Shown: one piece after another, positions 13,745 through 31,882 of the stretch
How the letters are laid out: the number at the start of each line of letters is the position of its first letter
How positions within the stretch are numbered: position 1 is the stretch's first letter
Assembly: GCA_022821845.1 (NCBI GenBank)
Contig: JAJECT010000039.1
Coordinates: 1-64,000, forward strand
DNA: 64,000 nucleotides
Reading direction: 5' to 3'
Source of the DNA: Rhodothermales bacterium
GTDB taxonomy: Bacteria > Bacteroidota > Rhodothermia > Rhodothermales > VXPQ01
Made by a program: the position numbers and the translations under genes
Notes under the pieces: model-generated
What the model saw: the letters and a program-made list of their open reading frames with translations, nothing else
The model's database searches: none
Told to the model about the DNA's origin: nothing

Positions 13745-15028
13745 ATGATCGCCCCAGACCGTATCGACGCTTCGAATCGGGCGCGCGACGCCGCCTGGCG
13801 CAGGGACTATGCGCATCTGGACGAACAACTTCGTCGCCGGGGACTGGACCCCGACGCCCTCGTGGAGCAGGCCGCTGCGTTCGAGGTGGCGGCCCCCTCG
13901 TGGGCGCTGGGAACCGGCGGTACGCGGTTCGGGCGCTTTCCGGGCAGGGGCGAGCCGCGGGACGTATTCGAGAAGGTGGAGGACGTATCCGCGGCGAAGC
14001 GGCTTTGCGGGGCCATTTCGCGGATATCGCTGCACATTCCCTGGGACGAGCCGGACGATCCCCGGGCGTTGCGCGCGCGGGCCGCCGAGTTGGGCGTAGG
14101 GTTCGACGCGGTAAACTCGAATACTTTTCAGGATCAGCCCGGACAGGCGCTGAGCTACAAGTTCGGGTCGTTTCAGCACACGGATCCGGCGGTGCGCAAG
14201 CAGGCCGTGGCGCATAATCTGCATGCGGCGGAGACGGGCGCCGCGCTGGGCTCGAACGCGCTGACGATCTGGCTGGGCGACGGAGCGAATTATCCGGGGC
14301 AGACCCATCTGCGCAAGGCCTGGGAACGGGTGCGGGATTGCCTGGCGGAAGTATACGAAGCCCTTCCGCCCGACTGGAGCCTTTTCGTCGAACACAAGCC
14401 GTTCGAGCCGGCGTTCTACGCAACCGTGGTGGCGGATTGGGGGTCCTCGCTCATGCTGGCGCGGGCGACCGGCGAACGGGCCTCGTGCCTGGTCGATCTG
14501 GGGCACCATCTTCCCAATGTGAATGTGGAGCAGGTGGTGGCGCGCCTCGTCACGGCGGGCAAACTGGGCGGGTTTCATTTCAACGACGCGAAGTACGGAG
14601 ACGACGACCTGACGGCGGGTTCCATCAAGCCCTATCAGTTGTTTCTCGTATTCAACGAGCTGGCGGACGCGCTGGCGGACGGCGCCTTGCCCGCGCCGCC
14701 TGCGTACATGATCGACCAGAGCCATAACGTCAAGGACCCTATCGAGGCCCTGTTGCAAACGGCGAACCGGCTTCAGGAAACCTGGATTCGCGCGCTTCTC
14801 GTGCGCCGCGACGCGCTCACGCATTATCAGGAAACGAACGACGCGCTGATGGCCGAGGAGACGCTTCGGGAAGCGTACGAAACGGATGTCCGCCCCCTTG
14901 CTGCGGCGGCGCGCAAGCGTCTGGGGGGCGCGCTCGATCCCATTGCCGCCTTTCGGGCCTCGGCGTATCGGGAGCGGGCCGCCGAAGCGCGGACCGGCGC
15001 CGCGTACGTTCCGCCCCAAAGCCTTTGA
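13745..15028 (+). CDS. rhaI: L-rhamnose isomerase (RhaI type)
   Basis: This 427-residue TIM-barrel enzyme converts L-rhamnose to L-rhamnulose. The barrel shows metal-ligand motifs in order: FVEHKPFEP (Glu), LVDLGHHLPN (Asp, His) and GFHFNDAKYGDDD (His/Asp). The DAVNSNTFQDQP and SYKFGSFQHTD substrate loops are as in RhaI/Pseudomonas-type isomerases rather than E. coli RhaA. Its neighbours are the kinase and aldolase of the same pathway. Divalent metal (Mn or Co) dependence is known for the family. The length is normal. Confidence 0.9.
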   Translation: MIAPDRIDASNRARDAAWRRDYAHLDEQLRRRGLDPDALVEQAAAFEVAAPSWALGTGGTRFGRFPGRGEPRDVFEKVEDVSAAKRLCGAISRISLHIPWDEPDDPRALRARAAELGVGFDAVNSNTFQDQPGQALSYKFGSFQHTDPAVRKQAVAHNLHAAETGAALGSNALTIWLGDGANYPGQTHLRKAWERVRDCLAEVYEALPPDWSLFVEHKPFEPAFYATVVADWGSSLMLARATGERASCLVDLGHHLPNVNVEQVVARLVTAGKLGGFHFNDAKYGDDDLTAGSIKPYQLFLVFNELADALADGALPAPPAYMIDQSHNVKDPIEALLQTANRLQETWIRALLVRRDALTHYQETNDALMAEETLREAYETDVRPLAAAARKRLGGALDPIAAFRASAYRERAAEARTGAAYVPPQSL

Positions 15029-15061
15029 ATATCCTTGCCGGGCGCCGCGCGCCGAAAACCC

Positions 15062-16471
15062 ATGCGACAATCCGCGCACCCTGTCCTTGCCGTGGACCTT
15101 GGCGCCGCGAGCGGGCGCGCCTTGCTGGGCCGGTTCGACGGGGAGCGCATGGCCATGCAGGAAGTGCACCGGTTCGAAACGCCCGTCGCGGAGGCGGAGG
15201 GGCATATCCAATGGGATATCCATGCGATCGAAGAAGAAATATGGACCGCGTTGCGGGCTGCGCTGACCGAGGCGCCCGACCTGCGGTCCGTGTCCGTGAA
15301 TTCCTGGGGCGTCGATTACGCGCGCCTTGGCGCGGCAGGGCGCCCGCTCGGCTTGCCGTATTGCTACCGGGACCCCCGATTGGACGGGGTCATGGCGTCC
15401 GTGCTGGAAGCGGTTCCGGCCCGGGAAATCTACGAACGCACCGGCGTCGCTTTTTTGCCGTTCAATACGCTGTATCAGTTGGCGGCGGACCGCAAGGCGG
15501 GCCTGCAGGCGGCGCGCTGCCTCCTGATCGCCGATTATTTTAATTACCGGCTTGGCGGGCGTCCGGTGGCCGAGGCGTCCCTTGCCAGCACCACGCAGAT
15601 CGTGGACATTCGCACGGGCCAGTGGGCGACGCCCCTTTTGCGCACGCTTGGCCTGGATCCGGCGCCGTGGCCGGAAATCGTGCCGTCGGGAACCGTCCTC
15701 GGGGCGGTGCGGGGCCATCCGGACGTGGCCGTCGTGGCTACGTGCAGCCACGATACGGCGCTGGCCGTGGCGGCTGCGCCCGCCACCCGCTCCGGGACCT
15801 GGGCCTACGTGAGTTGTGGAACCTGGTCGCTTTTCGGGGTGGAGCGGACGGCGCCCGTCGTTACGCCCGCCGCGCTCGCTGCCGGATATACGAACGAAAT
15901 CGGGCTGGACGGCTCTGTCCGCTTGCTCAAGAACCTGACCGGATTGTGGGTGTTGCAGGAATGCGTACGCGAATGGGGCGGCGCGGCGTGGGACGAACTG
16001 GAAGCGGAGGCCCGCCGCGCGCCTGCTGCGGGCGCGACGCTGGACCTGAACGATCCGCGTTTTTTGCGCCCGGGCGGCATGGAAAAGCGTTTGCTGGATG
16101 CGTTGCGAGAGGCGGGCGCGCCGCTTCCGGCCTCGCGGGGCGAACTGTGCCGCGCGATTCTGGAGAGCATGGCGGATAGTTACCGCCGGGCGCTGGCCGA
16201 CCTGGAGCAGATTGCGGGCGAGCGCGTCGATGCGCTGCATATCGTGGGCGGCGGGTCGCAAAACGGCCTGTTGTGCGCGTGCGCGGCCAAGGCGTGCGGT
16301 CGGCCCGTCGTCGCCGGTCCGGCGGAGGCGACGGCGCTGGGCAACGCGCTCGTGCAACTCAGGACGCTGGGCGGCCTGCCGGACGGGGTTTCGCTGCGTG
16401 AGGCGTCCGCCCGGTCCTGCAATCCGCGCGCCTATACGCCCGACGGCCGGGTATTGGAGGGAACGATCTAA
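15062..16471 (+). CDS. rhaB: Rhamnulokinase (FGGY family)
   Basis: This 469-residue sugar kinase phosphorylates L-rhamnulose at O1. The start MRQSAHPVLAVDLGAASGR gives the canonical FGGY N-terminal phosphate loop (DLGAASGRA). The second domain holds SCGTWSLFGVE and the ADP-binding HIVGGGSQNGLLCACAAKA segment near residues 395-415. It lies 33 bases after rhaI and upstream of the aldolase, consistent with one operon. An upstream non-ATG start would add nine residues and is less likely. Confidence 0.92.
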   Translation: MRQSAHPVLAVDLGAASGRALLGRFDGERMAMQEVHRFETPVAEAEGHIQWDIHAIEEEIWTALRAALTEAPDLRSVSVNSWGVDYARLGAAGRPLGLPYCYRDPRLDGVMASVLEAVPAREIYERTGVAFLPFNTLYQLAADRKAGLQAARCLLIADYFNYRLGGRPVAEASLASTTQIVDIRTGQWATPLLRTLGLDPAPWPEIVPSGTVLGAVRGHPDVAVVATCSHDTALAVAAAPATRSGTWAYVSCGTWSLFGVERTAPVVTPAALAAGYTNEIGLDGSVRLLKNLTGLWVLQECVREWGGAAWDELEAEARRAPAAGATLDLNDPRFLRPGGMEKRLLDALREAGAPLPASRGELCRAILESMADSYRRALADLEQIAGERVDALHIVGGGSQNGLLCACAAKACGRPVVAGPAEATALGNALVQLRTLGGLPDGVSLREASARSCNPRAYTPDGRVLEGTI

Positions 16472-16658
16472 GGATACGACAGGACATAAGGCGCCGTTTT
16501 TGATGCTTTTTTACGCCTTTTTTATGCTATTTGTAAACCATTTTTACGCTATACCCATGCGTTTTCCGTCTTTTGCCCGCGTCGCCTTTGCGCCCTTGCG
16601 GAATGTGCATCTTCTCCGCTAACTTGCTTGAAGTCCCTCGCCAAATCTTGCCAACAGC
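16472..16658 (+). other. AT-rich spacer inside the rhamnose cluster
   Basis: These 187 bases are unusually T-rich compared with the GC-rich genes on both sides, with repeated TTTTTACGC/TTTTTTATGC words around 16500-16550. An internal promoter for the aldolase-lut genes is plausible, but I see no clear -35/-10 pair and no terminator hairpin. Confidence 0.4.
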
Positions 16659-18809
16659 ATGAACAACGCTTCCCGCACGCCAACCTTTCTGCATGTAGAA
16701 GACCAGTGGGACGAGGCCGAGGCGGCCTCTCTCGACGGATTGGGACGCCTGGTGTATCGATCGAACTTGCTGGGGCGCGACCGGCGCTTTACGAACACCG
16801 GCGGCGGCAATACGTCGTCCAAGATCATGGAGCGGGACCCCGTTACCGGGGAGGAGGCGGAGGTGCTCTGGGTCAAGGGGTCTGGCGGCGATCTGGGGAG
16901 CGCGGGCCGGGAAAATTTCGCGTCGCTGTATATGGACAAGTTTCTGGCCTTGCAGGAAACCTATGCGCGGTTTCCCGAGCGCGGCCTGAAAACGGAGGCG
17001 GAGGACGCCATGCCTGCAATGTATGCGCACGCCGTGTTCAATCTGAATCGGCGGGCGCCCAGCATCGACACGCCCCTGCACGGGTTCGTGCCGTATCGGC
17101 ATGTAGACCATACGCACCCGGTGGCCGCCATTGCGATCGCCACGGCGGATTGCGGGGCCGAATTGACCCGCGAGGCGTACGGCGACGAGGTGGCGTGGGT
17201 GAACTGGAAGCGGCCCGGGTTCGAACTGGGCCTGGATATGCGGCGCATTTGCGAGGAGCGCCCGGACGCGAAAGGCGTTATGCTGGGCGGGCACGGCCTC
17301 ATCAACTGGGCCGACGACGACCGCGAATGCTATCTGCTTACGCTCCGCCTCATAGACCGGGCCGAGCAGTTCGTGGCGGAGCGCGCCGCCGGACAAGCGG
17401 CTTTCGGGGGGGCGCGATACAAGGACCTTTCGGAGGCGGCGCGGCGGGCGGCGCTGGCCGACCTGTTGCCCTGGCTGCGCGGGCGGCTGAGCACCGAGCG
17501 CAAGGTGATCGCCACGGTCGATGCGTCCAAAGCGGCGCTCCGGTTCGTAAACGCCCGCGAGACGTCCCGGCTTGCCGAATTGGGCACGTCCTGCCCCGAT
17601 CACTTTTTGCGGACGAAGATAAAGCCGTTGTATGTGGACTGGCGCCCCGGCTCCGGGAATTCCGCTGCGTTGCGGGCGCGTCTCGACAAGGCCCTGACCC
17701 GCTACGCGCAGGACTACGCGGCGTATTACGAGGCCTGCCGCCGCCCGGATTCTCCCGCCATGCGCAGCGCCCTGCCGTCCGTCGCGCTGTTGCCGGGCCT
17801 TGGCCTCGTCGGGTGGGGCAAGAACAAGCGCGAAAGCGCCCTGGCCGCGGAATTTTACGCCGCCGCCATAGAAGTCATGCGCGGCGCGGAAGCGATAGGG
17901 GCGTATACCGCGCTGCCGCGGCAGGAAGCCTTCGATATAGAATACTGGGCGCTGGAGGAGGCGAAGTTGCGGCGCCTGCCTCCCGAAAAGGAATTGGCCC
18001 GCGAAGTGGCGGTGGTGGTGGGCGGAGGCAGCGGGATCGGCGCGGCGACGGCGCGGCGCCTTGCAGCGGAGGGCGCGGCGGTGGCCGTGGTCGATCTGGA
18101 CGCAAGCGCCGCCCGCGCCGTGGCGGAAACGCTGGATGCGGACGGGGCGCTCGCCCTCGAAGCCGACGCGACGGATCGGGCGTCCGTCCGCCGCGCCTTG
18201 CAGGAGGCCGCGCTTGCTTTTGGGGGAATAGATCACGTGGCGATTACGGCCGGGCTGTACCCGACCCCGGACGCCGGGGGCGCCATTTCCGACGCGGCCT
18301 GGGCCAAAACATTTGGCGTCAACGTGACCGCCGCCTGGATCGTGGCGGACGAAGCGGCCCGGATATGGTCGGCGCAGGATTTGCCGGGCAGCCTTGTGCT
18401 TATGACGAGCGCAAACGCAGTGGTCGTCAAGTCGGGCAGCCTGGCGTACGACGCGAGCAAGGCCGCCGCAAACCATCTTGTTCGCGAACTGGCCCTGCGG
18501 CTGGCGCCGAATATTCGGGTGAATGCGGTGGCTCCGGCCACGGTGCTTGGCGGAAGCAACATGTTTCCAAGGGATCGCGTCGTGGCTTCGCTCATTCGGT
18601 ACGGCCTCTCCTGCGAGGAGGGGGAGGATACGGACGCGCTGCGCCGTCGGCTGGCCGATTTCTACGCCGGGCGCACCCTGCTTCGCCAGACGATCCTCGC
18701 CGAGGACCAGGCCGAGGCCGCGTTTTTGCTGGCGAGCCGTCGGCTGGGCAAGACCACGGGGCAGATTCTTCAAGTGGACGGCGGCTTGCCGGAGGCGTTT
18801 CTGCGATGA
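16659..18809 (+). CDS. rhaD: Bifunctional rhamnulose-1-P aldolase / lactaldehyde dehydrogenase
   Basis: This 716-residue fusion has an N-terminal class II aldolase domain (about 25-330) with phosphate-loop NTGGGNTSSK and metal-binding HVDHTHP and GGHGLINW. Its C-terminal half (about 450-716) is a short-chain dehydrogenase with the NAD motif GGGSGIG and catalytic YDASK. The aldolase yields DHAP and L-lactaldehyde, and the SDR oxidises the aldehyde to L-lactate. This matches the RhaD aldolase/ADH fusion of known rhamnose clusters. The stop overlaps lutA by ATGA, which ties lactate production to lactate oxidation. It is homologous in role, not in fold order, to E. coli RhaD. Confidence 0.92.
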   Translation: MNNASRTPTFLHVEDQWDEAEAASLDGLGRLVYRSNLLGRDRRFTNTGGGNTSSKIMERDPVTGEEAEVLWVKGSGGDLGSAGRENFASLYMDKFLALQETYARFPERGLKTEAEDAMPAMYAHAVFNLNRRAPSIDTPLHGFVPYRHVDHTHPVAAIAIATADCGAELTREAYGDEVAWVNWKRPGFELGLDMRRICEERPDAKGVMLGGHGLINWADDDRECYLLTLRLIDRAEQFVAERAAGQAAFGGARYKDLSEAARRAALADLLPWLRGRLSTERKVIATVDASKAALRFVNARETSRLAELGTSCPDHFLRTKIKPLYVDWRPGSGNSAALRARLDKALTRYAQDYAAYYEACRRPDSPAMRSALPSVALLPGLGLVGWGKNKRESALAAEFYAAAIEVMRGAEAIGAYTALPRQEAFDIEYWALEEAKLRRLPPEKELAREVAVVVGGGSGIGAATARRLAAEGAAVAVVDLDASAARAVAETLDADGALALEADATDRASVRRALQEAALAFGGIDHVAITAGLYPTPDAGGAISDAAWAKTFGVNVTAAWIVADEAARIWSAQDLPGSLVLMTSANAVVVKSGSLAYDASKAAANHLVRELALRLAPNIRVNAVAPATVLGGSNMFPRDRVVASLIRYGLSCEEGEDTDALRRRLADFYAGRTLLRQTILAEDQAEAAFLLASRRLGKTTGQILQVDGGLPEAFLR

Positions 18810-19534
18810 AGGTCGGGTTGTTCGCGCCCTGTTATATCGACCAGTTCTATCCGCAAGCGGCGGTGGCGACGCTCGAACTGCTGGAGCGCCTGGGGTGCGA
18901 CGTGGCGTACCCTCGCGGGCAAACGTGCTGCGGCCAGCCGATGGCGAACGCCGGATGCGCGCCTGCCGCCGAGGCTGCGCACCGGCATGTAGCGGCCTGT
19001 TTCGAAGGGTTCGACTACGTGGTGGGGCCCTCGGGAAGTTGCGTACTGCATCTGCGGGAGCATGTCGAAGGGGCGCCGGACGCCCGGTATTACGAACTCT
19101 GCCAGTTTCTGGTGGAAGTGTTGCAGGTGGAGCGCCTCGACGCGGCTTTTGCCTGCCGGGTGGGGTTGCACGCCTCCTGTCACGGGCTTCGGGGGCTGCG
19201 CCTGGCGCGGGCTTCGGAGCGGCAGGAGCCGCCGTTCGATTACGTGGCCTATCTGCTGGATATGGTGGACGGGGTGGAGCGGGTCCCGCTGGATCGCCCG
19301 GACGAATGTTGCGGCTTCGGGGGGATGTTCGCCATAGAGGAGGAGGCGGTTTCCGTGCGGATGGGCGCGGACCGGCTTGCGGACCATTTGCGGCAGCGCG
19401 TCGAGGTGATCACGGGAACCGATATGTCCTGCCTGATGCATCTCGAAGGGTTGATTCGCCGCCGAAACCTGCCGTTGCGGGTGTTGCACGTGGCCGAGAT
19501 TCTGAACGGAAGCGGCGAGGCGCGCAATGGATGA
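18806..19534 (+). CDS. lutA: Lactate utilisation protein LutA (Fe-S oxidoreductase)
   Basis: This 242-residue protein has the two CCG domains of LutA/GlpC-type proteins. The first has FAPCYIDQFYP and TCCGQPMANAG. The second has LHASCHGLRGL and ECCGFGGMFAIEEE. It overlaps the aldolase stop by ATGA and itself overlaps lutB by eight bases. With LutB and LutC it oxidises L-lactate to pyruvate in Bacillus-type systems. Here lactate comes from rhamnose, so the operon would let the cell use the whole carbon skeleton. Confidence 0.9.
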   Translation: MKVGLFAPCYIDQFYPQAAVATLELLERLGCDVAYPRGQTCCGQPMANAGCAPAAEAAHRHVAACFEGFDYVVGPSGSCVLHLREHVEGAPDARYYELCQFLVEVLQVERLDAAFACRVGLHASCHGLRGLRLARASERQEPPFDYVAYLLDMVDGVERVPLDRPDECCGFGGMFAIEEEAVSVRMGADRLADHLRQRVEVITGTDMSCLMHLEGLIRRRNLPLRVLHVAEILNGSGEARNG

Positions 19535-20975
19535 CCCAACGCATGATCTAATGGCTGACCCAATGAATGACGGGGCCCGCCTCGCTGCCGCAGACCGTTC
19601 CGCCCGCGTGCGTCACGCCGACCGGGCGGCCCGCTTCGTCGCCGACGCCGGACAGACCGACTGGCACGACGCCGTACTCTGGCGCATTCGCGGCAAGCGG
19701 GATGCGGCGGCGGGGCGCGTGGAAGGGTGGGAGCGGCTGCGCGCGCTGGCCTCGGAGATCAAGGAGCATACGCTGTCGAGGCTGGACGAATACCTCGCGG
19801 CGTTCGAGGAAGCGGCTACGGCGAACGGGGCGCAGGTCCATTGGGCTGCGGACGCGGACGCGCATAACCGCATCGTACGGGACGTGCTCCGGGCGCGGGG
19901 CGTTCGCCGCGTGGTCAAGAGCAAGTCCATGCTGACGGAGGAATGCGGCCTGAATCCGTACCTCGAAGCGCGCGGCTTCGAGGTGGTGGATACGGACCTT
20001 GGAGAGCGCATCGTGCAGCTCCGGGAGGAGCCGCCCAGCCACCTCGTGGCCCCGGCGATCCATGTCCGCAAGGAGGAAATCGCCGCCCTGTTTCACGAAA
20101 AACTGGGGACGCCCGCCGACGCCGACGACCCCCGCTTGCTGGCCGCCGCGATGCGGGAGGACTTGCGCGCCCGGTTTCTGGCCGCCGACGCAGCGATTAC
20201 GGGCGTGAATTTCGCCGTTGCGTCCACGGGGGCGCTGGTTCTGGTAACCAACGAGGGCAATGCGGACCTCGGCGCGCATCTGGCGCCGGCGCACATCGCC
20301 TGCATGGGCATCGAGAAACTGATTCCGAAACCGGAGCATCTCGGCGTATTCCTGCGCCTTCTGGCCCGCAGCGCCACGGGCCAGCCCCTGTCCGTCTATA
20401 CGTCGTATTTCTGCCGTCCGCCGCCGGGCCGCGAACTGCATATCGTACTGGTGGACAACGGGCGTTCGCGCCGCCTTGCGCAGCCGGATTTTCGGGCCGC
20501 GCTCAAGTGCATCCGGTGCGGCGCGTGCCTGAATACGTGCCCCGTGTACCGTCGCAGCGGTGGCCATAGTTACGGAGCGACCCCTTCCGGCCCCATCGGG
20601 GCGATTCTGGCGCCCGGCATGGACATGAAACGCTACGCTTCGTTGCCGTTCGCTTCGTCCCTGTGCGGTTCGTGCAGCGACGTGTGTCCGGTCAAGATCG
20701 ATATTCACGCCCAGTTGCACCGGTGGCGACAGGTTGCCGCGCGGGAGGGGTACGTTGCCTGGCCCAAGCGCTGGGGGATGCGCGTGGCCGGATGGATTGT
20801 CCGCAGCCCCCGTCGCTACCGGCTGGCGGGTCGGCTGGCCCGGGCCTGGCTGCGGCATGCGCCCCGCCGCTTGCGCTACGGCTCCTGGAATGCGTGGGGG
20901 CGGGCGCGGGAGCTGCCGCGCGTCCCCGACCGGTCGTTCGGGGAATGGTATGCCGCCGAACGGGGGAAGAAATGA
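19527..20975 (+). CDS. lutB: Lactate utilisation protein LutB (4Fe-4S)
   Basis: This 482-residue protein has an N-terminal LUD domain (KSKSMLTEECGLNPYLE, AITGVNFAVASTGALVLVTNEGN) and a C-terminal ferredoxin-like region with CIRCGACLNTCP and CGSCSDVCPVKI, each able to hold a 4Fe-4S cluster. The C-terminus is Arg-rich and less conserved. The start at ATG 19527 overlaps lutA; further ATGs lie up to about 35 bases downstream. It acts with LutA and LutC in cytoplasmic or membrane-associated L-lactate oxidation. Confidence 0.92.
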   Translation: MDDPTHDLMADPMNDGARLAAADRSARVRHADRAARFVADAGQTDWHDAVLWRIRGKRDAAAGRVEGWERLRALASEIKEHTLSRLDEYLAAFEEAATANGAQVHWAADADAHNRIVRDVLRARGVRRVVKSKSMLTEECGLNPYLEARGFEVVDTDLGERIVQLREEPPSHLVAPAIHVRKEEIAALFHEKLGTPADADDPRLLAAAMREDLRARFLAADAAITGVNFAVASTGALVLVTNEGNADLGAHLAPAHIACMGIEKLIPKPEHLGVFLRLLARSATGQPLSVYTSYFCRPPPGRELHIVLVDNGRSRRLAQPDFRAALKCIRCGACLNTCPVYRRSGGHSYGATPSGPIGAILAPGMDMKRYASLPFASSLCGSCSDVCPVKIDIHAQLHRWRQVAAREGYVAWPKRWGMRVAGWIVRSPRRYRLAGRLARAWLRHAPRRLRYGSWNAWGRARELPRVPDRSFGEWYAAERGKK

Positions 20976-21042
20976 GGCAAGCGAACCGGCATACCGTTCG
21001 GGGAGCCGGCGTTTTTCGCCGTTCCATGCGGAGGGCAAGGGG

Positions 21043-21675
21043 ATGAACCGAAAGCGCCGACAGAACGCTTTGGGCCGGGCCGAACACAGAACGCGCAACG
21101 GCGCCCGCGCGGCGATTCTTGAGGCCGTACGCCGCGCTCGTCCTCGCGCGGCGCCGCTGCCCCTCGTCGCCGGCGTACAGGATACGGCAGGCGACGCCGA
21201 GCTGGTCGCCCGGTTTATGGCGTCGGCGCAGGCGGCTTCCGCGACCGTGCGGATGGTGGAGGCGGGGAGCGTGGAAGCTGCCGTGCGGGAAGCGTTTCCA
21301 GGGGCAGCGTCCATCGCTTCGGCGACTCCGGCATGGAGCTTCGAACAGGCAAACCCCGCCGACGAGGCGTCCGCGCTGGCCCGCCTCGACGTACTGGTGT
21401 GTCCCGGCGCGTTCGGGGTGGCGGAGAACGGGGCCGTATGGCTCGCGGAATCCGGCATGGGGTCGCGGGCCGCCCCGTTTCTCGCGCAGCATCTCGTGCT
21501 GGCGCTGGACCGCAGCGCCATTGTGCCGGACATGCACGCCGCCTGCGACCGGCTCAAAACGTTTGGGGAGGGCTATGGCGCCTTCGTGGCCGGACCGTCC
21601 AAGACCGCCGACATAGAGCAAACGCTTGTGATCGGGGCGCACGGGCCCCGCAGCCTCACCGTGCTGCTCACGTAG
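21043..21675 (+). CDS. lutC: Lactate utilisation protein LutC (LUD domain)
   Basis: This 210-residue LUD-domain protein is the third subunit of the LutABC complex. Conserved features are the AENGAVWLAESGMGSRAAPF stretch, a DRSAIVPDMHAA segment and GPSKTADIEQTLVIGAHGP close to the end. ATG 21043 is chosen because GGAGGGCAAGGGG lies just before it. The 67-base gap after lutB is larger than elsewhere in the operon. It closes the plus-strand rhamnose/lactate cluster. Confidence 0.88.
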   Translation: MNRKRRQNALGRAEHRTRNGARAAILEAVRRARPRAAPLPLVAGVQDTAGDAELVARFMASAQAASATVRMVEAGSVEAAVREAFPGAASIASATPAWSFEQANPADEASALARLDVLVCPGAFGVAENGAVWLAESGMGSRAAPFLAQHLVLALDRSAIVPDMHAACDRLKTFGEGYGAFVAGPSKTADIEQTLVIGAHGPRSLTVLLT

Positions 21676-21961: not shown

Positions 21962-23326
21962 TTATCCCCGGAATGGCGCGAGGTGTTTTTCGAAATGCCG
22001 CCGGATGCCTTGCCGGTGGGCCTTGTCCTGTTCGGCGAGCGCGGCGTACACCTCGTCGTAGCGCTGTTCGAGGACGGGGCCGAACGCCACGTGAACGACC
22101 TGCCGGGCGTGATGGTCGTCGAGGAGGTCCGCGAGGGCGTCGTCGGGGACGTCCGGGATGCATTCCACCCGGCCGTCAAGATGGTAACTCTGGCGGTTTT
22201 CGGCGTAGCCCTCCACGGCCAGGTTCAGAATCCGGCGGAAAAGGTCCGGCGCATGGCGCGCAATCACGCGCAAAGCCTCCAGCCAGCTGGTGCCAGAGGT
22301 TTTGACGTGGACGTATTCCGGGGTGCGCCGCTGGATGTACGGGTAGATGGCCAGTTTGTCGCTGCCGGAATGCACGCTCAGTTTGTAGGGCCCCAGTTCT
22401 TCCGCAATGGCGGCGTGCGCGGCGTAGTTCCGGGCGAACGCCTCCGTATCTCCCGCATAATCCACGCCCTTGTAGAAATCGCCGACGAACCGGGGCGCCA
22501 GCCCGATAAACGAAACGCCAAGCCGGTCAAGTTCCAGCGCAATGTATCGATGCTGGGCGGGGGTGGTGGGGGTATCCGTTTCGTCCACCGATATTTCGAG
22601 GTCGAAGGGGGCCGCGCCGAACCGGCTGCGCAGGTGCGCATGGAGCCGGACTACGCGCGCAAGGGCCGCGCCATATTTGCCCGCCGCCCTGAGCAAGGTT
22701 TCTTCGGGAAGCGCGCCGTCCGCCTCCGGTCCGGTGGCGTACCGCTGGAGATGGCGCTTCGGGTTGCTCCGCAAGACGTCCCAGGGCAGCTCCGCAAAGC
22801 GATTCCAGAGCGCGGCGGCGTCCTCCGTATCGGCGGCGGCGCGCACGTATTGCCCCGGGTCCAGCGTAAATCCGACGAATCCCGCGTCGATGCACCGATC
22901 TATTTCCGCCTCGGTCTTGACATGGTCCGCGTCGCAGCCATAGCCGTCCCGATAGCCGGTTTCGAGCACGGCCCAGGTTACGTCGTCCAGGACTTGCTGC
23001 GGACTGCGGCGGGCGCGCGCCATTTCGCGCATGGATTGCTGCGCGAGGACAGGGAAAAAGCCGCTTTCCGGCAGGTTGGCGAGCGCGTCGAGGTGTCCGG
23101 GCGTGGCGAGGCCCAGCCGGTCTCCGAAACCGAACGATTTGCGCCGCCCGACAAGTTGCGGGGCCGTCCAGGGGAGCGTTTCCCGAACGAGCGCGGCGTG
23201 GCGGGCATGGAGCGGGCAGTACGCGCCGTCGTCGGCGGTCTCGCCCTCGAACCCGTCCGGCAGCTCTCCGGTTATGCGCAGCAGGCGTTCGTTCCCGCGC
23301 CGGACAATGGAAAAGACGTTGGACAT
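21962..23326 (-). CDS. uxaE: D-tagaturonate epimerase family protein (UxaE)
   Basis: This 454-residue protein matches the UxaE family (Thermotoga TM0440 type), which epimerises D-tagaturonate and D-fructuronate at C4. Visible landmarks are GFGDRLGLATPGHL near residue 65, DGYGCDADHVKT, DLEISVDETDTPTT, FVGDFYKGVDY and SVHSGSDKLAIYPYI. The TIM-barrel character is shown by repeated strand-D/E/H motifs. It is the last gene of a four-gene minus-strand operon. The classical uxa partners (UxaC, UxaD, KDG kinase) are not in the window, so the true substrate here may differ. Confidence 0.85.
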   Translation of the reverse strand: MSNVFSIVRRGNERLLRITGELPDGFEGETADDGAYCPLHARHAALVRETLPWTAPQLVGRRKSFGFGDRLGLATPGHLDALANLPESGFFPVLAQQSMREMARARRSPQQVLDDVTWAVLETGYRDGYGCDADHVKTEAEIDRCIDAGFVGFTLDPGQYVRAAADTEDAAALWNRFAELPWDVLRSNPKRHLQRYATGPEADGALPEETLLRAAGKYGAALARVVRLHAHLRSRFGAAPFDLEISVDETDTPTTPAQHRYIALELDRLGVSFIGLAPRFVGDFYKGVDYAGDTEAFARNYAAHAAIAEELGPYKLSVHSGSDKLAIYPYIQRRTPEYVHVKTSGTSWLEALRVIARHAPDLFRRILNLAVEGYAENRQSYHLDGRVECIPDVPDDALADLLDDHHARQVVHVAFGPVLEQRYDEVYAALAEQDKAHRQGIRRHFEKHLAPFRG

Positions 23327-23380
23327 GGGTAAATCCGCGAAGATCAGAGGCTGCGAGGGTTTTCGAGCGTTCGGCCCTGC

Positions 23381-24409
23381 TTATCGACTTTGCGCGTACC
23401 ATGTTTCCGACAGGTCGGGACGCGGCTGCCGCGTAGGCCAGGGCGTTCCGCGCCGTTCGCATATCGCGGCGAGGGTTTCCATGCGTTCGCGGGCCACGCC
23501 GCGCATGAAGGCGTCGAGCGCGTCTCCTTCAAGGCCCACGCCTTCCTTCCAGACGGCCTGACCCGCCATGACGCCGCTGGCGCCCGCCCGGCACGCCGCT
23601 TCCGCTTGTTCCGCGAACAATTCGAAGGATACGCCCCCGCTGAGCAGGGTCCAGGGGACCGTGCAGGCCTCGTCCAGCGCCCGGAGCGCCGGCCCCCAGG
23701 TATCCGGGGGCGCGTCGGGGGGCAGGGGAAACGGCATTTTAAGCACGTCCACGCCGCGCTGCGAGAAATGCCGGGCGGTTTCTACCGTAACCTGCGCGCG
23801 TTCCTCGCCCGAAAGCGGTTCGGCCGGGTCGAGGGGGCAGGATATCGGTTCCAGAAAGAAGGGCAGCCCGCCCGCGTGGCTTGCGGCGACGAGTCGGTCC
23901 ACGCTTTCCGTTTGCGCGGCGGCTTGCGGCGATTCCGGGTGGAAGAACAGCAACAATTTCGCCCCGTCGCCCCCGTAGCGGAGGATTTCCTTCGCGCCCC
24001 AGTGTTCGATGAACGCCATTTTCCGGCGGCTGGGGTGGGTTCTGTAGTCCGTAATTTCAAGCGGGGCGATGAGGCCGAAGGCGTTTTCGAGGCGGTCGGG
24101 CATATCGGCCAGCGCCGGAAAACCGTAATCCGGGTCGGCGAGCACGGCGGTGTACGCCCCGGCGAGTCCCCGGATCGCCGCCTGTTTGAAGTACAACAGG
24201 TCTTCCCGGGTTGTCGGGCGGCCCCGCGCCTTGGCCATCTCTTGCGCCAGGTTGGCCCGGTGATCAATGGCGAGGATAGCGAACGCGCCGGTCGTTCCGG
24301 CGCACCGACCTATGTGTCTTTCGAGGGCGAATTGCGTTGCGGAATGGTTCGCATGGCGTTCGGCCTTGCCGTTTGTTTCCCGGTTCGTCCGGGCCGTGGC
24401 CACTCCCAT
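23381..24409 (-). CDS. LacD/DeoC-family class I aldolase
   Basis: This 342-residue class I aldolase resembles tagatose-1,6-bisphosphate aldolase and the aldolase partner of IolC. Motifs in order: FAILAIDHRANL (LacD ALDQRG), AVLADPDYGFPAL (LacD ILLDPEYGLPA), LLLFFHPES, PFFLEPISCP and GVDVLKMPFP, where the Lys of DVLK should form the Schiff base. LSGGVSFELF and GVMAGQAVWKEGV complete the barrel. The start ATG shares one base with the kinase stop (TAATG), indicating translational coupling. Products would be DHAP or glyceraldehyde-P plus an aldehyde; the substrate is not proven. Confidence 0.82.
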   Translation of the reverse strand: MGVATARTNRETNGKAERHANHSATQFALERHIGRCAGTTGAFAILAIDHRANLAQEMAKARGRPTTREDLLYFKQAAIRGLAGAYTAVLADPDYGFPALADMPDRLENAFGLIAPLEITDYRTHPSRRKMAFIEHWGAKEILRYGGDGAKLLLFFHPESPQAAAQTESVDRLVAASHAGGLPFFLEPISCPLDPAEPLSGEERAQVTVETARHFSQRGVDVLKMPFPLPPDAPPDTWGPALRALDEACTVPWTLLSGGVSFELFAEQAEAACRAGASGVMAGQAVWKEGVGLEGDALDAFMRGVARERMETLAAICERRGTPWPTRQPRPDLSETWYAQSR

Positions 24410-25368
24410 TACAATCCTCCCTGTTGTGCTATAAACGTTGCGACTTCTTCGCGCCGGGGCATGTCGTTCGCGCAGGCATGGCGCGTTACGACGATCGCGC
24501 CGGCGGCATTGCCAAACCGGGCGCATTGTTTCCATGGCCATCCTTGTAGCCAGGCATAGACGAATCCGGCGGCCCAGGCGTCGCCTGCCCCCAGCACATT
24601 GAGCGTTTTCACGGAAAACGGGCGCGCCCGGCAGACATCCCCATCCTTGGTATGCACTTCCGAGCCCTTTGCTCCGCGTTTTACGGCGACGGCTTGGCGC
24701 GCGAGGTCGAGCAGGGCGGGCACGGCCTCTTCCACGCCGGGCTCGTCGGCGGCGGCCATGATTTCTTCTTCTGTCCCCATGACGACGTCCGCGAGGGGCA
24801 GCGCTTCGCGCAAATGCTTGCCGAAGGCGCCCGGATCGCGCCAGAGCGTGGGGCGGCGGTCGATATCCAGCGCGACGCGGGTTCCCGCTGCGCGGGCGCG
24901 CTCCATCGCCGCAAGCGCGGCGCTGCGGGCAGGCTCGCCGCTGAACCGGGTTCCGGCCACGAAGAGCGCGTCGGCCTCCTCGAAATCGATCTTTGCCATG
25001 TCCTCCGGCGTCATGTGCATGTCGGCCGGATCGGGACGGTAATAGACGAGCGGGAACGTGTCCGGGGGCAGAATGCTCAGGAAGGCCAGCCCGGTCAAGC
25101 GCTCCGCGTCGCGCGCGACATACCGGGTATCGACGCCTTCTGTCGTCAAAAACTCGACCAGGCCGTCGCTCAGGCCGTCCGTGCCGATCCGGGACGCCAT
25201 CGCTACGCGCAGGCCGAGGCGGGCCGCGCCGGTGGCGAAATTGGCCGGACAGCCTCCGGCGTAGACGCTGAAATGCCGTACGCGGGCCAGTTCCACGCCG
25301 ATCTCGTCGGCGTACAGGTCGATGGCCAGCCGCCCCAGACTGATGACGTCAAAAGTTCGTTTGGACAT
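24409..25368 (-). CDS. iolC: PfkB-family sugar kinase (IolC-like)
   Basis: This 319-residue ribokinase-fold kinase is most like 5-dehydro-2-deoxygluconokinase: DVISLGRLAIDLY at the start, YAGGCPANFATGAARLG, TLWRDP, and the PfkB anion hole and catalytic base in LNVLGAGDAWAAGFVYA (GAGD). It lies 52 bases after the dehydrogenase and is coupled to the aldolase. In inositol catabolism IolC makes DKG-phosphate for the aldolase. No iolB, iolD, iolE or iolG is seen here, so myo-inositol use is not supported. Confidence 0.85.
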   Translation of the reverse strand: MSKRTFDVISLGRLAIDLYADEIGVELARVRHFSVYAGGCPANFATGAARLGLRVAMASRIGTDGLSDGLVEFLTTEGVDTRYVARDAERLTGLAFLSILPPDTFPLVYYRPDPADMHMTPEDMAKIDFEEADALFVAGTRFSGEPARSAALAAMERARAAGTRVALDIDRRPTLWRDPGAFGKHLREALPLADVVMGTEEEIMAAADEPGVEEAVPALLDLARQAVAVKRGAKGSEVHTKDGDVCRARPFSVKTLNVLGAGDAWAAGFVYAWLQGWPWKQCARFGNAAGAIVVTRHACANDMPRREEVATFIAQQGGL

Positions 25369-25420
25369 GCGCGCCAGAAAATCAACCGGAAAAACAAGCG
25401 GGGAAAATCATCCGTCAAAA

Positions 25421-26896
25421 TCAGAAGGCGCGGGTCCATTCGCTGGGCCAGCGCTCCACCACCACTTTCGTTTGCGTATAAAACTCTACGCCGTGCCGGG
25501 ACTGGGCGTGCAAATCTCCGAAGAAACTTTCGTTCCAGCCGCTAAACGGGAAAAAGGCCATGGGCGCCGCCACCCCGATATTCACGCCTATGTTGCCGGC
25601 GTCCGCTTCGTGGCGGAATTGCCGCGCATGGGCTCCGCTGCTCGTGAAGATGCAGGCCATGTTGCCGTAGGGACCGTCGTTTACGAACCGGATGGCTTCG
25701 TCCAGCGTCTCGACGTGGCAGAGGCTCAGCACCGGTCCGAAAACTTCGATTCGGGAGAGCGTGCTGCCTGGGGGAATGTCCGAAAGTACGGAGGGAAAAA
25801 GGAAATAGCCGTCTTCGTAGCCTTCGACTTGCTTGCCCCGCCCGTCCACCAGGATGCGGGCGCCGTCTTGCGCGCCCGTCTCGATAAGCCCTTCGACGCG
25901 CGCTTTGCTTTGCCCGGAAATCACGGGTCCCATTTGCACGGCGTCGTCCAGGCCGTAGCCTACCTTGCGCGACGCGGCGGCCTCCGCGATGCGTTCGGCG
26001 AATTCCTTGCCCGCTGCGCCTACCGTTACGGCCACCGAGGCGGCAAGGCAGCGCTGTCCGGCGCAGCCAAACGCGGAGTCCGCCATGATTTGCGTCGTCA
26101 TGTCCATGTCGGCGTCCGGCATGATCACCACCGGATTCTTCGCGCCGCCCTGGCACTGGGCGCGTTTTCCCGCCGCCGCCGCCCGTCCGTAGACATAGCG
26201 CGCGACGGGCGTGGAGCCGACGAAACTCACGGCGCGGACCAGCGGATGGTCCAGGAGCGCTTCCACGGCGTCTTTCCCTCCGTGCACGAGTTGCAGTACG
26301 CCCGGCGGAAAATCGCAGGCGTCGATCAGGTCGAAAAGCCGGGCGCTGGTGACCGGGACGCGCTCGCTCGGCTTCAGGATGAAGCAATTGCCGGTAGCGA
26401 CGGCGTAGGGCAGGAACCACAGGGGAATCATGCCGGGAAAATTAAACGGGGTGATGGCCGCCGTAACGCCCAGCGGTTGCCGAATCATATGCTCGTCGAT
26501 GCCGCGGGCGACGTCCTCGTTGTTGACGCCCTGCATGAGGATGGGCGAGCCAATGGCCACTTCCACGTTTTCGATGCCCCGGCGCAGTTCGCCCAGGCTT
26601 TCCCGGAAGGTTTTGCCGCATTCGTTCGTGATCGTTCGGGCCAGGTCCTCGGCGCGCTCCTCCAGGAGTTGCTTGAGCCGGAAGAGGTGTCCGATGCGTT
26701 CCGTAACCGGGGTGGCCCGCCATGCCGGGAAGGCCTTGTGCGCCGCCTGCACGGCCTCGTCGACTTCCTCCTTCGACGAGAGGGGGACGCGGGCCAGCGG
26801 CGCGGCCGTGGCGGGATTCAGTACGTCCAGGAGGGGGCTTTCCTTGCGGAGTCGCCAGTCGCCTTCTATGTAATGGCGTAGCGGAGCGGGGGACAT
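25421..26896 (-). CDS. mmsA: Methylmalonate/malonate-semialdehyde dehydrogenase-like (MmsA/IolA)
   Basis: This 491-residue aldehyde dehydrogenase has the CoA-acylating MmsA/IolA signature. It has [34 protein letters not shown]-binding [28 protein letters not shown] and catalytic Cys in [28 protein letters not shown] closes the fold. It lacks the usual general-base Glu of hydrolytic ALDHs at the expected site, as in CoA-dependent members. It is the first gene of the operon with the kinase, aldolase and epimerase, and would oxidise the semialdehyde released by the aldolase. Sulfolactaldehyde dehydrogenase homologues are an alternative. Confidence 0.88.
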
Positions 26897-27188: not shown

Positions 27189-28223
27189 ATGAAAGCTGTC
27201 ATGAAAGTCGCCCCCGGCGCGGGGCATATCGAACTCCGCGACATTCCCGAACCGAACCCGGGTCCCGGGCAGGTCAAGATTCGGGTGCAGGCCGCCGGGA
27301 TATGCGGTACGGACCTCCATATATATAAGGACGAATTTCCATCCTGGCCGCCTGTGGCGCTTGGACACGAGGTGGCGGGCGAGGTTGCGGACGCCGGGGA
27401 CGATGTGGAGGGCCTGGCGCCGGGCCTGCGCGTAACGACGGAGACCTATTTTTCCACCTGCGGGGGGTGCCGCTATTGCCGCGCCGGGCGGGCGAACCTG
27501 TGCTTGCATCGCCGTTCGATCGGGTCGGCGGTGAACGGGGGCTTCGCCCGGCACGTGATTGTCCCGGCGGCGGGCGTGCATGCCTTGCCGGAGAACGTGG
27601 ACTTCGAGGCCGGCGCCCTGACCGAACCGCTGGCCTGCGTGGTGCACGGCGTGTCCACCGTGCCCACGGTGTTTCCCGGGGACGTGGCGGTCGTGGCGGG
27701 TCCCGGCGCCATCGGGCTGCTTACGTTGCAGGTGGCGAAGGCGGCGGGCGCCACCGTGGTCGTACTGGGCGCGGACGGCGACGAGCGGCGCCTGGAACTG
27801 GCCCGTTCGCTGGGGGCGGACCATGCCGTCAACGCGCAGCGCGAAAGCCCCCGGGACCTTGTGGCCGCCCTCGCGCCCGAAGGCATGGGGGCGGACGTGG
27901 CGTACGAATGTTCGGGCGCGGGGCAGGCCGCCGCCGGACTGCTGGAGCTGGTTCGGCGGGCGGGGCGGTATGTGCAGATCGGGCTTTTCGGCAAGCCCGT
28001 CGCCTGGGACCTGGACCAGGTATGCTACAAGGAACTGGTTGTTACGGGCAGCAACGCAAGCGTGCCTCCCGCCTGGCTGCGGGCGTTGCAACTGCTGCGA
28101 ACCGGGCAGGTGCGCACAAAGCCGCTCGTAACCGATATTTTCGAGATAACGGAATGGAAAGCGGCGTTCGAGGGGTTCGAACGGCGGCGCGGCGTGAAGA
28201 CCCTGTTCGTGCCCGTGGACTGA
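27189..28223 (+). CDS. Zinc-dependent alcohol dehydrogenase (MDR family)
   Basis: This 344-residue medium-chain dehydrogenase has catalytic-zinc residues in [12 protein letters not shown] and LGHEVAGEV and a structural-zinc tetracysteine in [17 protein letters not shown]. The NAD site is [21 protein letters not shown], and a [10 protein letters not shown] bridge lies between domains. It is close to threonine/sorbitol dehydrogenases in layout. It diverges from the mmsA operon and may act on a related polyol or sugar acid; this is inferred from position only. Confidence 0.88.
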
Positions 28224-28304
28224 TTCTGGGCGCCGCGCCCGGGTGCCCTACTCGACCGGATTGCCGGTTCCGGCGGCCCCGCTCAAAAAAAAATTCTTCT
28301 TTTC

Positions 28305-28333
28305 TTGTTTTATTGTTTAAAATGCCGTACACT
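28305..28333 (+). promoter_or_regulatory. Promoter of unit A
   Basis: TTGTTT (28305-28310) and TACACT (28328-28333) are separated by 17 bases within an AT-rich stretch. They lie about 145 bases upstream of the first TBDR start. The spacing matches the unit B promoter, though the sequences are not otherwise alike. Confidence 0.55.
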
Positions 28334-28477
28334 CTATCGGATTTTGTGCGCACTTCACCCGAATACGTTCCACGCACGCGGGACATGATGTTCCACGACT
28401 ATTGCGTGAATTGCGGGGTTGTCGCGCTTTTTCAAGCGTTATTCGCTAACCAACATAAATACCAGAGGGTCATGCAT

Positions 28478-31400
28478 ATGAGACTGGCAAAGCTACTGTT
28501 TACGCTTGCATTGCTTATCCCGGCCACGGCCTGGGCGCAGCAAGGCAAGATCGCTGGTCAGGTAACCGACGGGAACACCGGGGACTCGCTTCCCGGCGTG
28601 AACGTGGTCATCGAGGGCACTACGCAAGGCGCCGTTACCGACGCCGAAGGGTTCTACCACATTCTGAATGTGCGTCCCGGCACGTACAACCTCCAGGCGT
28701 CGTTCATTGGATATACGACTGCGATTCAGCAAGGAATCCACGTGAGCACGGACCTTACGACCACGGTGAACTTCGAGCTGAACGAGGAAACCGTGGGCCT
28801 TGAGGAGGTGGTCGTGGTGGCCGAGCAGCCTATCGTACAGGCGGACGTTTCGGCGAACGTGGCGAACCTGAGCGCCCAGGACTTTCAGGACCTGCCGGTG
28901 GCAGGCATTTCGGAAGTACTGGACTTGCAGGCGGGCATCGAGCCGGGCATGCGCGTGCGTGGCGGCGGCCTCAACGAGGTGGCCTTTATCGTAGACGGCT
29001 TGCAGATGCGCACGGGGCGCCACAACGATCCCATGACCAGCGTCAGCTATACGTCGCTTGAGGAGGTGCAGGTGCAGACGGGCGGGTTCAGCGCGGAGTA
29101 CGGGAACGTGCGTTCCGGCATCGTGAACGTGGCTACGAAAGAGCCTTCCCGCACGGACTACACGGTGGACGCGCTGGTTCGTTACGCGCCGGCTCAGGAC
29201 AAGACCTTTGACGCCTACCATCAGTTGCCGTCCAATTGCAACTATTCCGGCTCTTCCATTCCCGTCGAGTGCGACACCTGGTTTGCGCGCCCGATCCTGG
29301 ACCCGGCGGTTCGGCTTAATGGTTCGGGGGGCGTGTGGGATGCGTACCAGGCCCGGCAGTACAAGCCGTTTCCGGGTTGGCAAGGCATCCTGACCCGGCT
29401 GCATGACGAAGGGTTCGACGTGACCGAGTCGGACATGATCGAGTACTGGCGTTACATGTGGCGCAAGAGCAACGAGATCACGATGCCGGATTACGACGCC
29501 GACATTACGGTTGGCGGTCCGATTCCGGGCGTCAGCCAGTATCTTGGCGACCTTCGCTTCCTTGCGTCGTATCGCGGCACCCAGACGGCCTATTTGTATC
29601 CGCAGGACCGCGAAGCCTATACGGACAATACCTATCAGGTCAAACTGATTTCCAATGTGGCGCCCGGCATGAAAGTGACGGCGCACGCCCTCGGCACCCG
29701 GCAGCGCGGCCAGGTCTGGCAGGAAAATTCGCGCGGCACCGAGATTTGGTCGGGCGACATTCCTGCGTATCCCTGGTGGCAGAACGAAGGCCGCGACGTA
29801 GGCAAGCAGATCTGGGAGATCGACATTCGCGGGGACGAATTGTTTACGGACGGACAGTGGCCCGTCGGCGACATCGATCACGACATGCTGGGCTTGCAGC
29901 TCACGCATACATTGAACCAGAATACGTTCTACGAGGTAGGCCTTCAGCGCATGGCGTCGAACTATCAAACCAGGCTTCCGACGTTGCGCGACGGATCTTT
30001 CGTGTGTTCTTCGTCTGGCACAGGCCCCAATGGCGAAGCCTGCGAGCCATACGAACTCGTTCGCGTTCCCTGGACGGACAACTTCGGCCGCATCAACGAG
30101 GGGTTCAATAGTCTGGTTGGGCAGCAGGACGGCATCATATGCTTCGGCGGCGATTCCGACGTTACCGGAGACGGCGCAGCAACCCCGTACTGCTCCGGTC
30201 AGGAGCCCATGGGCTTCGCCGGTATCGGCGGGAACATCCTGACGGACGAATCGACGGGCGGCCACTGGGTCAAGACCCGCGACACTTCGACCGTTACGGT
30301 GTATACCGGGCGGTTTGACCTGACGAGCCAGCTCAATCGTTTCCTGTTGCTCAAGACGGGCGCCGAGCTGATCTTCAGCGATTACGACATGAACTACGCG
30401 AGCATCAACATTGCCTTGGCGGGCCCGCAATCCGGGGCGCGCTGGCCGTGGGACGGCTCGCCGGTGCAGGGCGCGGCCTATGTGCAGGGTAAACTCGAAT
30501 TCCAGGGGATGATCGCGAACCTCGGCGTACGCCTTGATTACTTCGACCCGAATACGGAATGGTGGGATTACGGATACTACGACGGAATCTTGCGCTTCGA
30601 CCGGGACAAACTGGACGAGGACCTCGATAAAGAATCTGTTTCCTCTCAGTTGGGCGTCAGTCCGCGCGTGGGTATTTCCTTCCCGATTACGACGAACAGC
30701 AAGTTGTACTTCAACTATGGTCACTTCCGCCAGATGATGGATGCCTACGACGTGCTCGGCATTCAGCAGTCCAAGGCGGGCGGCATCGATCAATTGGCGA
30801 ACCCGGAGCATCCGTTGCCCAAGACGGTGGCGTACGAACTGGGCTTCGACCAGAACGTGCTGGACCAGTTCCTCGTCCGTATTTCCGGGTACTACCGGGA
30901 CAACAAGGAAGAAACCCGGACCGTTAATTTCCAGAGCCTGGGCGGCGTTGTGAGTTACAGCACGAAGATGCCGTGGCATTACTCGGATACGCGGGGCGCG
31001 GAGTTCAGCATTTCCAAGAACCGGGGCAAGTGGGTTCAGGGCTTTGCGAACTTCACGTATCAGCAGCGGAAGTCGGGTAACTTCGGGTATTCGAACTTCT
31101 ACGAGAACTCGTTCCAGATGGTGAACTGGCTGCGCACCGCCACGGACTACAGGCAGTCGGCGCCGGTGGCCGAGCCGTTTGCGAATGCAAACTTGCTGGT
31201 GATTACGCCAGAAGGCTTCGGCCCCCAGATCGCGGGCGGGAATCCCTTGGCGAATTTCCGCATCAGCTTCCTTGGCGAATGGCGCAAGGGCGTTGCGTTG
31301 ACTTGGGCGGGCGATTTCTCGGCGAACATTCCGGAAGTGCGCAACAACGTTCGGTATCGCGACTACTGGAACTTCGACCTGCGCTTTACGAAGCACTTTA

Positions 31401-31882
31401 GCGCCGGGCCCACGCGGTTGCAGGTGTTTGCGGACATCGACAATGTCTTCAACCTGCGGCATTTGAACTGGGGCGGCGCTTTTCTCGAACGCCAGGGAGA
31501 CGATCCCGGGGATTACATGCGGTCGCTGCATTTGGCCGAGGATATTTTCGACCAGCTGCCGGAAGGCAGTTCCAAGCCTTACGAATGGGTTCCGGGCGAC
31601 GACAAGCCGGGCGTATTCCGCGACTGGGACGTTGCGTTCCAGCCGATCGAGGCCAAGGCCACGTTGCCGGACGCTCCCGACGAGGGTTTCGAACGAGGCT
31701 GGGTGTATGCGAGCGATACAGGATCGTATCACCGGTGGACAGGCAGCGCCTGGGAGAGCGTTCCCCAGGGCGAACTGGATCAGGTGCTGGAGGACAAGGC
31801 ATACATCGATATGCCGAACCACCGGTTCAACACCTTCCTGAATCCGCGTCGCGTTACGTTCGGCCTGCGGGTAAGCTTCTAA
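28478..31882 (+). CDS. TonB-dependent receptor (unit A, first)
   Basis: This 1134-residue outer-membrane receptor has a signal peptide MRLAKLLFTLALLIPATAWA. A carboxypeptidase-regulatory-like domain (GKIAGQVTD...GVNVVIEGTTQGAVTDAEG, about 20-105) is next. The plug carries VAFIVDGLQM and TGGFSAEYGNVRSGIVNV (about 110-230), and a large beta-barrel follows. The C-terminus ends FGLRVSF as in barrel proteins. AGAGGG supports the ATG at 28478; an ATG two codons earlier is possible. The ligand is unknown; no SusD partner is present. The close paralogue is the unit B gene at 45214-48444, including a Tyr/Trp-rich region just before the end. Confidence 0.9.
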   Translation: MRLAKLLFTLALLIPATAWAQQGKIAGQVTDGNTGDSLPGVNVVIEGTTQGAVTDAEGFYHILNVRPGTYNLQASFIGYTTAIQQGIHVSTDLTTTVNFELNEETVGLEEVVVVAEQPIVQADVSANVANLSAQDFQDLPVAGISEVLDLQAGIEPGMRVRGGGLNEVAFIVDGLQMRTGRHNDPMTSVSYTSLEEVQVQTGGFSAEYGNVRSGIVNVATKEPSRTDYTVDALVRYAPAQDKTFDAYHQLPSNCNYSGSSIPVECDTWFARPILDPAVRLNGSGGVWDAYQARQYKPFPGWQGILTRLHDEGFDVTESDMIEYWRYMWRKSNEITMPDYDADITVGGPIPGVSQYLGDLRFLASYRGTQTAYLYPQDREAYTDNTYQVKLISNVAPGMKVTAHALGTRQRGQVWQENSRGTEIWSGDIPAYPWWQNEGRDVGKQIWEIDIRGDELFTDGQWPVGDIDHDMLGLQLTHTLNQNTFYEVGLQRMASNYQTRLPTLRDGSFVCSSSGTGPNGEACEPYELVRVPWTDNFGRINEGFNSLVGQQDGIICFGGDSDVTGDGAATPYCSGQEPMGFAGIGGNILTDESTGGHWVKTRDTSTVTVYTGRFDLTSQLNRFLLLKTGAELIFSDYDMNYASINIALAGPQSGARWPWDGSPVQGAAYVQGKLEFQGMIANLGVRLDYFDPNTEWWDYGYYDGILRFDRDKLDEDLDKESVSSQLGVSPRVGISFPITTNSKLYFNYGHFRQMMDAYDVLGIQQSKAGGIDQLANPEHPLPKTVAYELGFDQNVLDQFLVRISGYYRDNKEETRTVNFQSLGGVVSYSTKMPWHYSDTRGAEFSISKNRGKWVQGFANFTYQQRKSGNFGYSNFYENSFQMVNWLRTATDYRQSAPVAEPFANANLLVITPEGFGPQIAGGNPLANFRISFLGEWRKGVALTWAGDFSANIPEVRNNVRYRDYWNFDLRFTKHFSAGPTRLQVFADIDNVFNLRHLNWGGAFLERQGDDPGDYMRSLHLAEDIFDQLPEGSSKPYEWVPGDDKPGVFRDWDVAFQPIEAKATLPDAPDEGFERGWVYASDTGSYHRWTGSAWESVPQGELDQVLEDKAYIDMPNHRFNTFLNPRRVTFGLRVSF

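Follow-up and report, generated by a model that had tools for sequence, protein, structure and literature searches.

A probable myo-inositol operon of a Rhodothermales bacterium with LacD-type aldolase and UxaE-type epimerase genes

Introduction

What purpose is served by a gene cluster in which a kinase and a dehydrogenase of inositol catabolism are combined with a LacD-family aldolase and a UxaE-type epimerase? This question is raised by a 64,000-nucleotide stretch of contig JAJECT010000039.1 from a Rhodothermales bacterium (assembly GCA_022821845.1), referred to here as the window, whose interval 26896-21962 on the minus strand holds four genes in the order mmsA/iolA, iolC, LacD-family class I aldolase and uxaE. 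An earlier note on this DNA named the four genes, and also the lower inositol logic of phosphorylation, cleavage and CoA-dependent oxidation, correctly; it further proposed that the epimerase replaces the upper inositol genes in a separate, undescribed pathway. As described below, the iol set was largely found elsewhere in the genome, and we consider it fairly probable that the cluster supplies the lower half of a full myo-inositol pathway, divided between two loci, with the LacD-type aldolase in the slot of IolJ. The operon is ordinary in its purpose, myo-inositol catabolism, and unusual in its LacD-type aldolase and UxaE-type epimerase, and it is a variant of a known pathway rather than a new one.

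The genome of the window (G000; 2.8 Mb, 45 contigs, 95.8% complete) was compared with genus relatives, of which G296 and G297 have complete chromosomes and G307 and G382 are further members. The genus set used for cluster conservation comprised five genomes, namely the window genome, those of loci L038 and L039 (both Rhodothermales metagenome-assembled chromosomes), G307 and G382.

Results

No upper inositol genes are present in the annotated part of the window, and the absence claimed earlier holds for this part alone. On contig C31 of G000 (7.9 kb), NCBIfam equivalog models identified iolD (C31:261-2084; 899 bits, cut-off 715), iolB (C31:3041-3796; 359 bits, cut-off 205) and, between them, iolE (381 bits, cut-off 290); from their translations, sucC and an LptF-like gene are also encoded there. 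The gene order around iolD-iolE-iolB on C31 matches that of the complete chromosomes G296 and G297, and this recurrence supports the assignment of the contig to G000. In both chromosomes, iolG-iolD-iolE-iolB form one operon far from the iolC cluster, with an IolG-type gene immediately upstream of iolD (387 bits in G297, cut-off 355; a similar gene in G296). A genome lacking the upper inositol genes is ruled out by iolD-iolE-iolB on C31 together with this operon in the relatives.

For the lower half of the pathway, the CoA-acylating (methyl)malonate-semialdehyde dehydrogenase MmsA/IolA (25421-26896, minus strand) scored 569 bits against TIGR01722 (cut-off 448.5) and is 90-98% identical to its copies in four genus relatives. 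The 5-dehydro-2-deoxygluconokinase IolC (24409-25368, minus strand; TIGR04382 359 bits, cut-off 300) is the only protein over the IolC cut-off in G000, and G296 and G297 likewise hold exactly one each, the copy in this cluster. The LacD-family class I aldolase (23381-24409, minus strand) scored 75.9 bits against PF01791 (cut-off 23.8) and 199 bits against the LacD subfamily model NF009498 (cut-off 184), and the tagaturonate/fructuronate epimerase family member UxaE (21962-23326, minus strand) scored 426 bits against PF16257 (cut-off 27.1). These scores are far over the curated cut-offs for PF16257, TIGR04382, TIGR01722 and PF01791, and only modestly so for NF009498. The start of the aldolase was placed at 24409, since the earliest ATG of its frame that fits a ribosome site, behind AGGGAGGA, overlaps the iolC stop by one base (TAATG). 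With this overlap and the short gaps of 52 bases between mmsA and iolC and 54 bases between lacD and uxaE, the four genes are probably one operon read as a single transcript.

The aldolase slot deserves closer attention. Class II aldolases of the IolJ type (PF01116) were found in none of the three genomes G000, G296 and G297, and G000 has just one other PF01791 protein, which at 647 bits (cut-off 327) is identified as a class I fructose-bisphosphate aldolase. The presence of this second enzyme rules out the LacD-type protein as the glycolytic aldolase; because no class II aldolase was found and fructose-bisphosphate has its own class I enzyme, the LacD-type protein is free for 5-dehydro-2-deoxyphosphogluconate (DKGP) and stands out as the candidate aldolase for this substrate. 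Its motifs GAK, FFLE and DVLK are kept in all five genus copies. It shares the class I aldolase family with the LacD tagatose-1,6-bisphosphate aldolases and the YihT sulfofructose-phosphate aldolases, from which it differs in standing beside IolC and MmsA; its best solved match is 8tnf (117 bits), deposited as DUF2090-containing, and it also resembles sulfofructose-phosphate aldolases (PDB 7ag1, 82.6 bits). Against DUF2090 itself (PF09863) it scored 26.9 bits, just below the cut-off of 27 and lower than for PF01791, this model having been run on no other genes of G000. According to Price et al. 2022 (PMC9007349), DUF2090 is related to LacD, and by the rule given there the present protein (DeoC/LacD 75.9 versus DUF2090 26.9) is not a DUF2090 protein. 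The IolC-DUF2090 fusion of that paper is therefore similar in coupling IolC to a class I aldolase of the LacD superfamily, and different in that the two are separate genes here.

Outside the genus, the same slot is filled in other ways. In a draw of 395 genomes of the phylum, IolC was detected at E 1e-75 or better in 21, five from the genus and 16 others. In the 14 of these 16 contexts that were read (G374 and G398 were left out), the aldolase beside iolC was Cgl0159-like in five (two checked by Pfam, the rest called from sequence), class II in three (one checked by Pfam) and not visible in six; a LacD-type aldolase was seen in none of the 14. Differing aldolases thus occupy the same slot. In loci L169, L171, L174, L177 and L182, Cgl0159-like (PF22649) proteins, two of the five checked by Pfam, lie between iolC and iolD, and they are likely a further DKGP aldolase family. 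On plasmids, relatives of the LacD-type protein were found in 433 records, all at less than 60% identity, and in the three plasmid contexts that were read no partner was named as iolC.

The four-gene order is intact in all five genus members, so the cluster is not a product of chance. In each of them uxaE accompanies iolC, lacD and mmsA and not uronate genes. Among the best 80 UxaE loci of a species-level genome collection, an aldolase, IolC and MmsA stand beside UxaE in two, L038 and L039, although the remaining 78 include many short loci, past whose ends neighbours may lie. Within the genus, the ratio of nonsynonymous to synonymous substitution rates is 0.19-0.23 for UxaE, 0.16-0.26 for LacD and 0.07-0.08 for MmsA, and UxaE is under purifying selection. 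What can be kept of the earlier idea of an undescribed arrangement is that UxaE and the LacD-type aldolase belong stably to an inositol operon; the separate pathway for another sugar acid has to be given up.

UxaE is the true oddity of the cluster. Its alignment was built from 106 sequences, one of which was too short and was dropped, and the catalytic residues E101 and D134 are invariant in all 105 that remained. By a printed alignment and counting, they correspond to E126 and D159 of the Cohnella enzyme, which a review (PMC11194214) describes as a retro-aldol/aldol epimerase that acts on C-3 of tagaturonate by means of Asp159 and Glu126. UxaE structures rank top for this protein when the PDB is searched by sequence, and an AlphaFold2 model (predicted local distance difference test score 95.2) matches UxaE structures best, then a tagatose 4-epimerase and then many class II aldolases. 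Compared with UxaE of Cohnella laeviribosi and relatives (PDB 6il9, 6ila, 6ilb, 9lhu and 9lhw), the protein shares the fold and the catalytic Glu and Asp; it differs in its 34-39% identity, in its place among inositol genes and in twelve changes at otherwise conserved positions.

In the 105-row tree the genus copies form a single clade that has a long stem (0.85 changes per column), is nested among Chloroflexota UxaE and is sister to three Anaerolineae sequences (Shimodaira-Hasegawa-like approximate likelihood-ratio test 99), not to other copies from its own order. The long stem and this placement suggest that UxaE was transferred and then changed fast; the gene probably came from a Chloroflexota-like donor and became fixed in the operon. 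The other UxaE sequences agree to 90% or more at 118 positions, and at 12 of these the genus has a fixed change; in 11 other clades the count is 0 to 8. Among the 12 are positions 285 (E to Y), 384 (S to D), 344 (A to S) and 136 (L to V), and some of the changes lie beside invariant motifs. As a control, the next-highest clade (8 fixed changes) is also long-stemmed (0.72 versus 0.85), and part of the 12-change count is hence plain divergence.

Next to the cluster, a zinc-dependent medium-chain dehydrogenase (27189-28223, plus strand) runs divergently to mmsA and adjoins it in all five genus members. It scores between threonine dehydrogenase and IolM and under every cut-off (NF003808 240.8 bits, cut-off 380; NF041097 IolM 200 bits, cut-off 450). 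In the Thermotoga-type inositol pathway (IolM/IolN/IolO), its counterpart would be IolM, a level that its score does not reach; it is possibly linked to the cluster in function, as a candidate inositol dehydrogenase. Also adjoining the cluster, a large outer-membrane receptor-like frame (27467-31882, plus strand) with a carboxypeptidase-regulatory-like domain at its start was read from its translation and could be a nutrient receptor. On the other side, positions 13745-21675 (plus strand) hold a coherent set of rhamnose-to-pyruvate genes: L-rhamnose isomerase, rhamnulokinase, a rhamnulose-1-phosphate aldolase fused to a lactaldehyde dehydrogenase, and genes with LUD domains (lactate utilisation). 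Parts of this set lie near the inositol cluster in four of the five genus members; for L038 they fall outside the stretch examined.

Discussion

Compared with the Bacillus subtilis-type iol pathway (IolG-E-D-B-C-J-A), the system described here has the same families, iolG (in the relatives), iolE, iolD, iolB, iolC and iolA/MmsA, and differs in its two loci, in having no class II IolJ and in the LacD-type aldolase and UxaE-type epimerase of its lower operon. In the scheme that we propose, the family assignments and the co-occurrence of the genes are observed and the reactions are derived from the families. The remote iolG-iolD-iolE-iolB operon would yield 5-dehydro-2-deoxy-D-gluconate (DKG), which IolC would phosphorylate; the LacD-type class I aldolase would then split DKGP into dihydroxyacetone phosphate and malonate semialdehyde, and MmsA/IolA would convert the latter to acetyl-CoA.

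The place of UxaE in this scheme is less clear. As our best single guess, which is a tentative one and on a par with hexuronate use, UxaE is an epimerase of DKG or a close relative. It would reversibly epimerise this compound at the acid C-3 by retro-aldol/aldol chemistry, giving either a tagatose-type stereoisomer suited to a LacD-type aldolase or an entry for the products of other inositol stereoisomers. The argument is a stereochemical one. In Fischer projection and acid numbering, D-fructuronate and 5-dehydro-2-deoxy-D-gluconate both have C3 to the left, C4 to the right and their keto group at C5; at C2 the former has its hydroxyl to the left and the latter is a CH2. Since the projections otherwise agree, DKG is fructuronate minus the C2 hydroxyl, and UxaE, which by inverting C3 turns a fructose-type into a tagatose-type arrangement, could therefore turn DKG into a tagatose-type epimer matching the LacD aldolase. 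IolJ enzymes are Fba (fructose-type) aldolases and LacD enzymes are tagatose-bisphosphate aldolases, and the joint appearance of an epimerase of such specificity with a LacD-type aldolase is chemically coherent. The fuller proposal, in which UxaE has become a DKG 3-epimerase, the tagatose-type intermediate is cleaved by a LacD-type and not an Fba-type aldolase and several inositol stereoisomers possibly share one lower pathway, is doubtful, and we offer it as a suggestion only.

Several observations weigh against these proposals, and UxaE may instead keep its ordinary role, to which we give the same tentative standing: tagaturonate would be converted to fructuronate for a mannonate oxidoreductase, UxuA, 2-keto-3-deoxygluconate (KDG) kinase and 2-keto-3-deoxy-6-phosphogluconate (KDPG) aldolase encoded elsewhere, and the iol neighbourhood would be incidental or co-regulatory. 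First, the centre inverted by UxaE is destroyed on aldol cleavage and LacD enzymes are relaxed in stereospecificity, so that the epimerase may be unneeded. Second, the mannonate dehydratase UxuA and KDPG aldolase were found in all three genomes searched, G000 included, D-mannonate oxidoreductase was found in G000 (348 bits, cut-off 281) and G296, and G000 encodes a kinase with a KDG kinase-like counterpart in G296; with these four enzymes, a fructuronate-consuming route is available to UxaE in G000. Third, the uronate (glucuronate) isomerase UxaC is present in two of the five genus genomes, G296 and G297. On the inositol side, no iolG remnant was found at the start of C31, just upstream of iolD, the remainder of G000 not having been searched. 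The retained catalytic residues of UxaE also speak for hexuronates, as do the sister copies in the Anaerolineae loci L040 and L041, which are followed by a short-chain dehydrogenase/reductase, identified in L040 as D-mannonate oxidoreductase (389 bits).

Against the ordinary role, no UxaC was detected in G000, G307 or G382, all of them draft genomes of 95-97% completeness. Where it does occur, it lies in a stretch (L195 4837-13765 and L196 6362-15294) that encodes UxaC, a TRAP-like transporter and sulfatase-like genes by translation and is 98.8% identical between G296 and G297 over 8.9 kb. Between the same two genomes the flanks are 84-91% identical and the iol cluster is 89% identical, so the stretch is probably a recent arrival, later than uxaE, on a mobile or recombined island. 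UxaE remains in the iol operon irrespective of whether UxaC is found in the genome, and the constant company of uxaE in all five genus members, its long stem and its fixed changes at conserved sites point the same way. KduI/IolB-family genes lying a little upstream of UxaE in L070, L086, L107 and L114 (Chloroflexota and Actinomycetota/Rubrobacteraceae) were considered as an inositol link and dropped, because their neighbours (enolase-like, short-chain dehydrogenase/reductase and glycosidase, by translation) suggest uronate use; these genes might act as uronate isomerases.

The separate route of the earlier note, in which an unusual uronate, deoxy-sugar acid or sulfo-sugar is epimerised, phosphorylated, split and oxidised independently of inositol, appears improbable. 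The resemblance of the LacD-type protein to sulfofructose-phosphate aldolases would suit it, and LacD relatives elsewhere occur with kinases and isomerases. However, the kinase exceeds the IolC equivalog cut-off as the sole such protein in G000, the iolD, iolE and iolB of this genome would otherwise be left without a kinase, and MmsA scores 569 bits as (methyl)malonate-semialdehyde dehydrogenase versus 224 bits as SafD-type sulfoacetaldehyde dehydrogenase. Least likely of all, UxaE could be a metal-dependent, non-phosphorylating DKG aldolase giving dihydroxyacetone and malonate semialdehyde in parallel to the IolC/LacD route; its class II aldolase fold and retro-aldol mechanism (PMC11194214), the many class II aldolases among its PDB matches after UxaE structures and tagatose 4-epimerase and the lack of PF01116 proteins in G000 agree with this, but the kinase and class I aldolase already make a complete route.

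Conclusion

In conclusion, the cluster is best read as the lower half of a myo-inositol pathway, in which the LacD-type aldolase and the UxaE-type epimerase are the unusual parts. In a literature search, out of whose reach most subscription papers lay, we recognized no published description of UxaE and a LacD-type aldolase in an inositol operon, and the L-glucose pathway uses a different C-4 epimerase, according to PMC12632266. With a LacD-type DKGP aldolase, a known gap would be closed: according to Price et al. 2022 (PMC9007349), 16 of 26 inositol users have IolC-DUF2090 and two have IolJ, which by subtraction leaves eight of the 26 with neither. The case also cautions that LacD or UxaE genes should not be named from their families alone. 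If the epimerase does act on an inositol intermediate, this would be a new enzyme activity, and a stereochemically matching epimerase and aldolase would have been recruited jointly into an old pathway.

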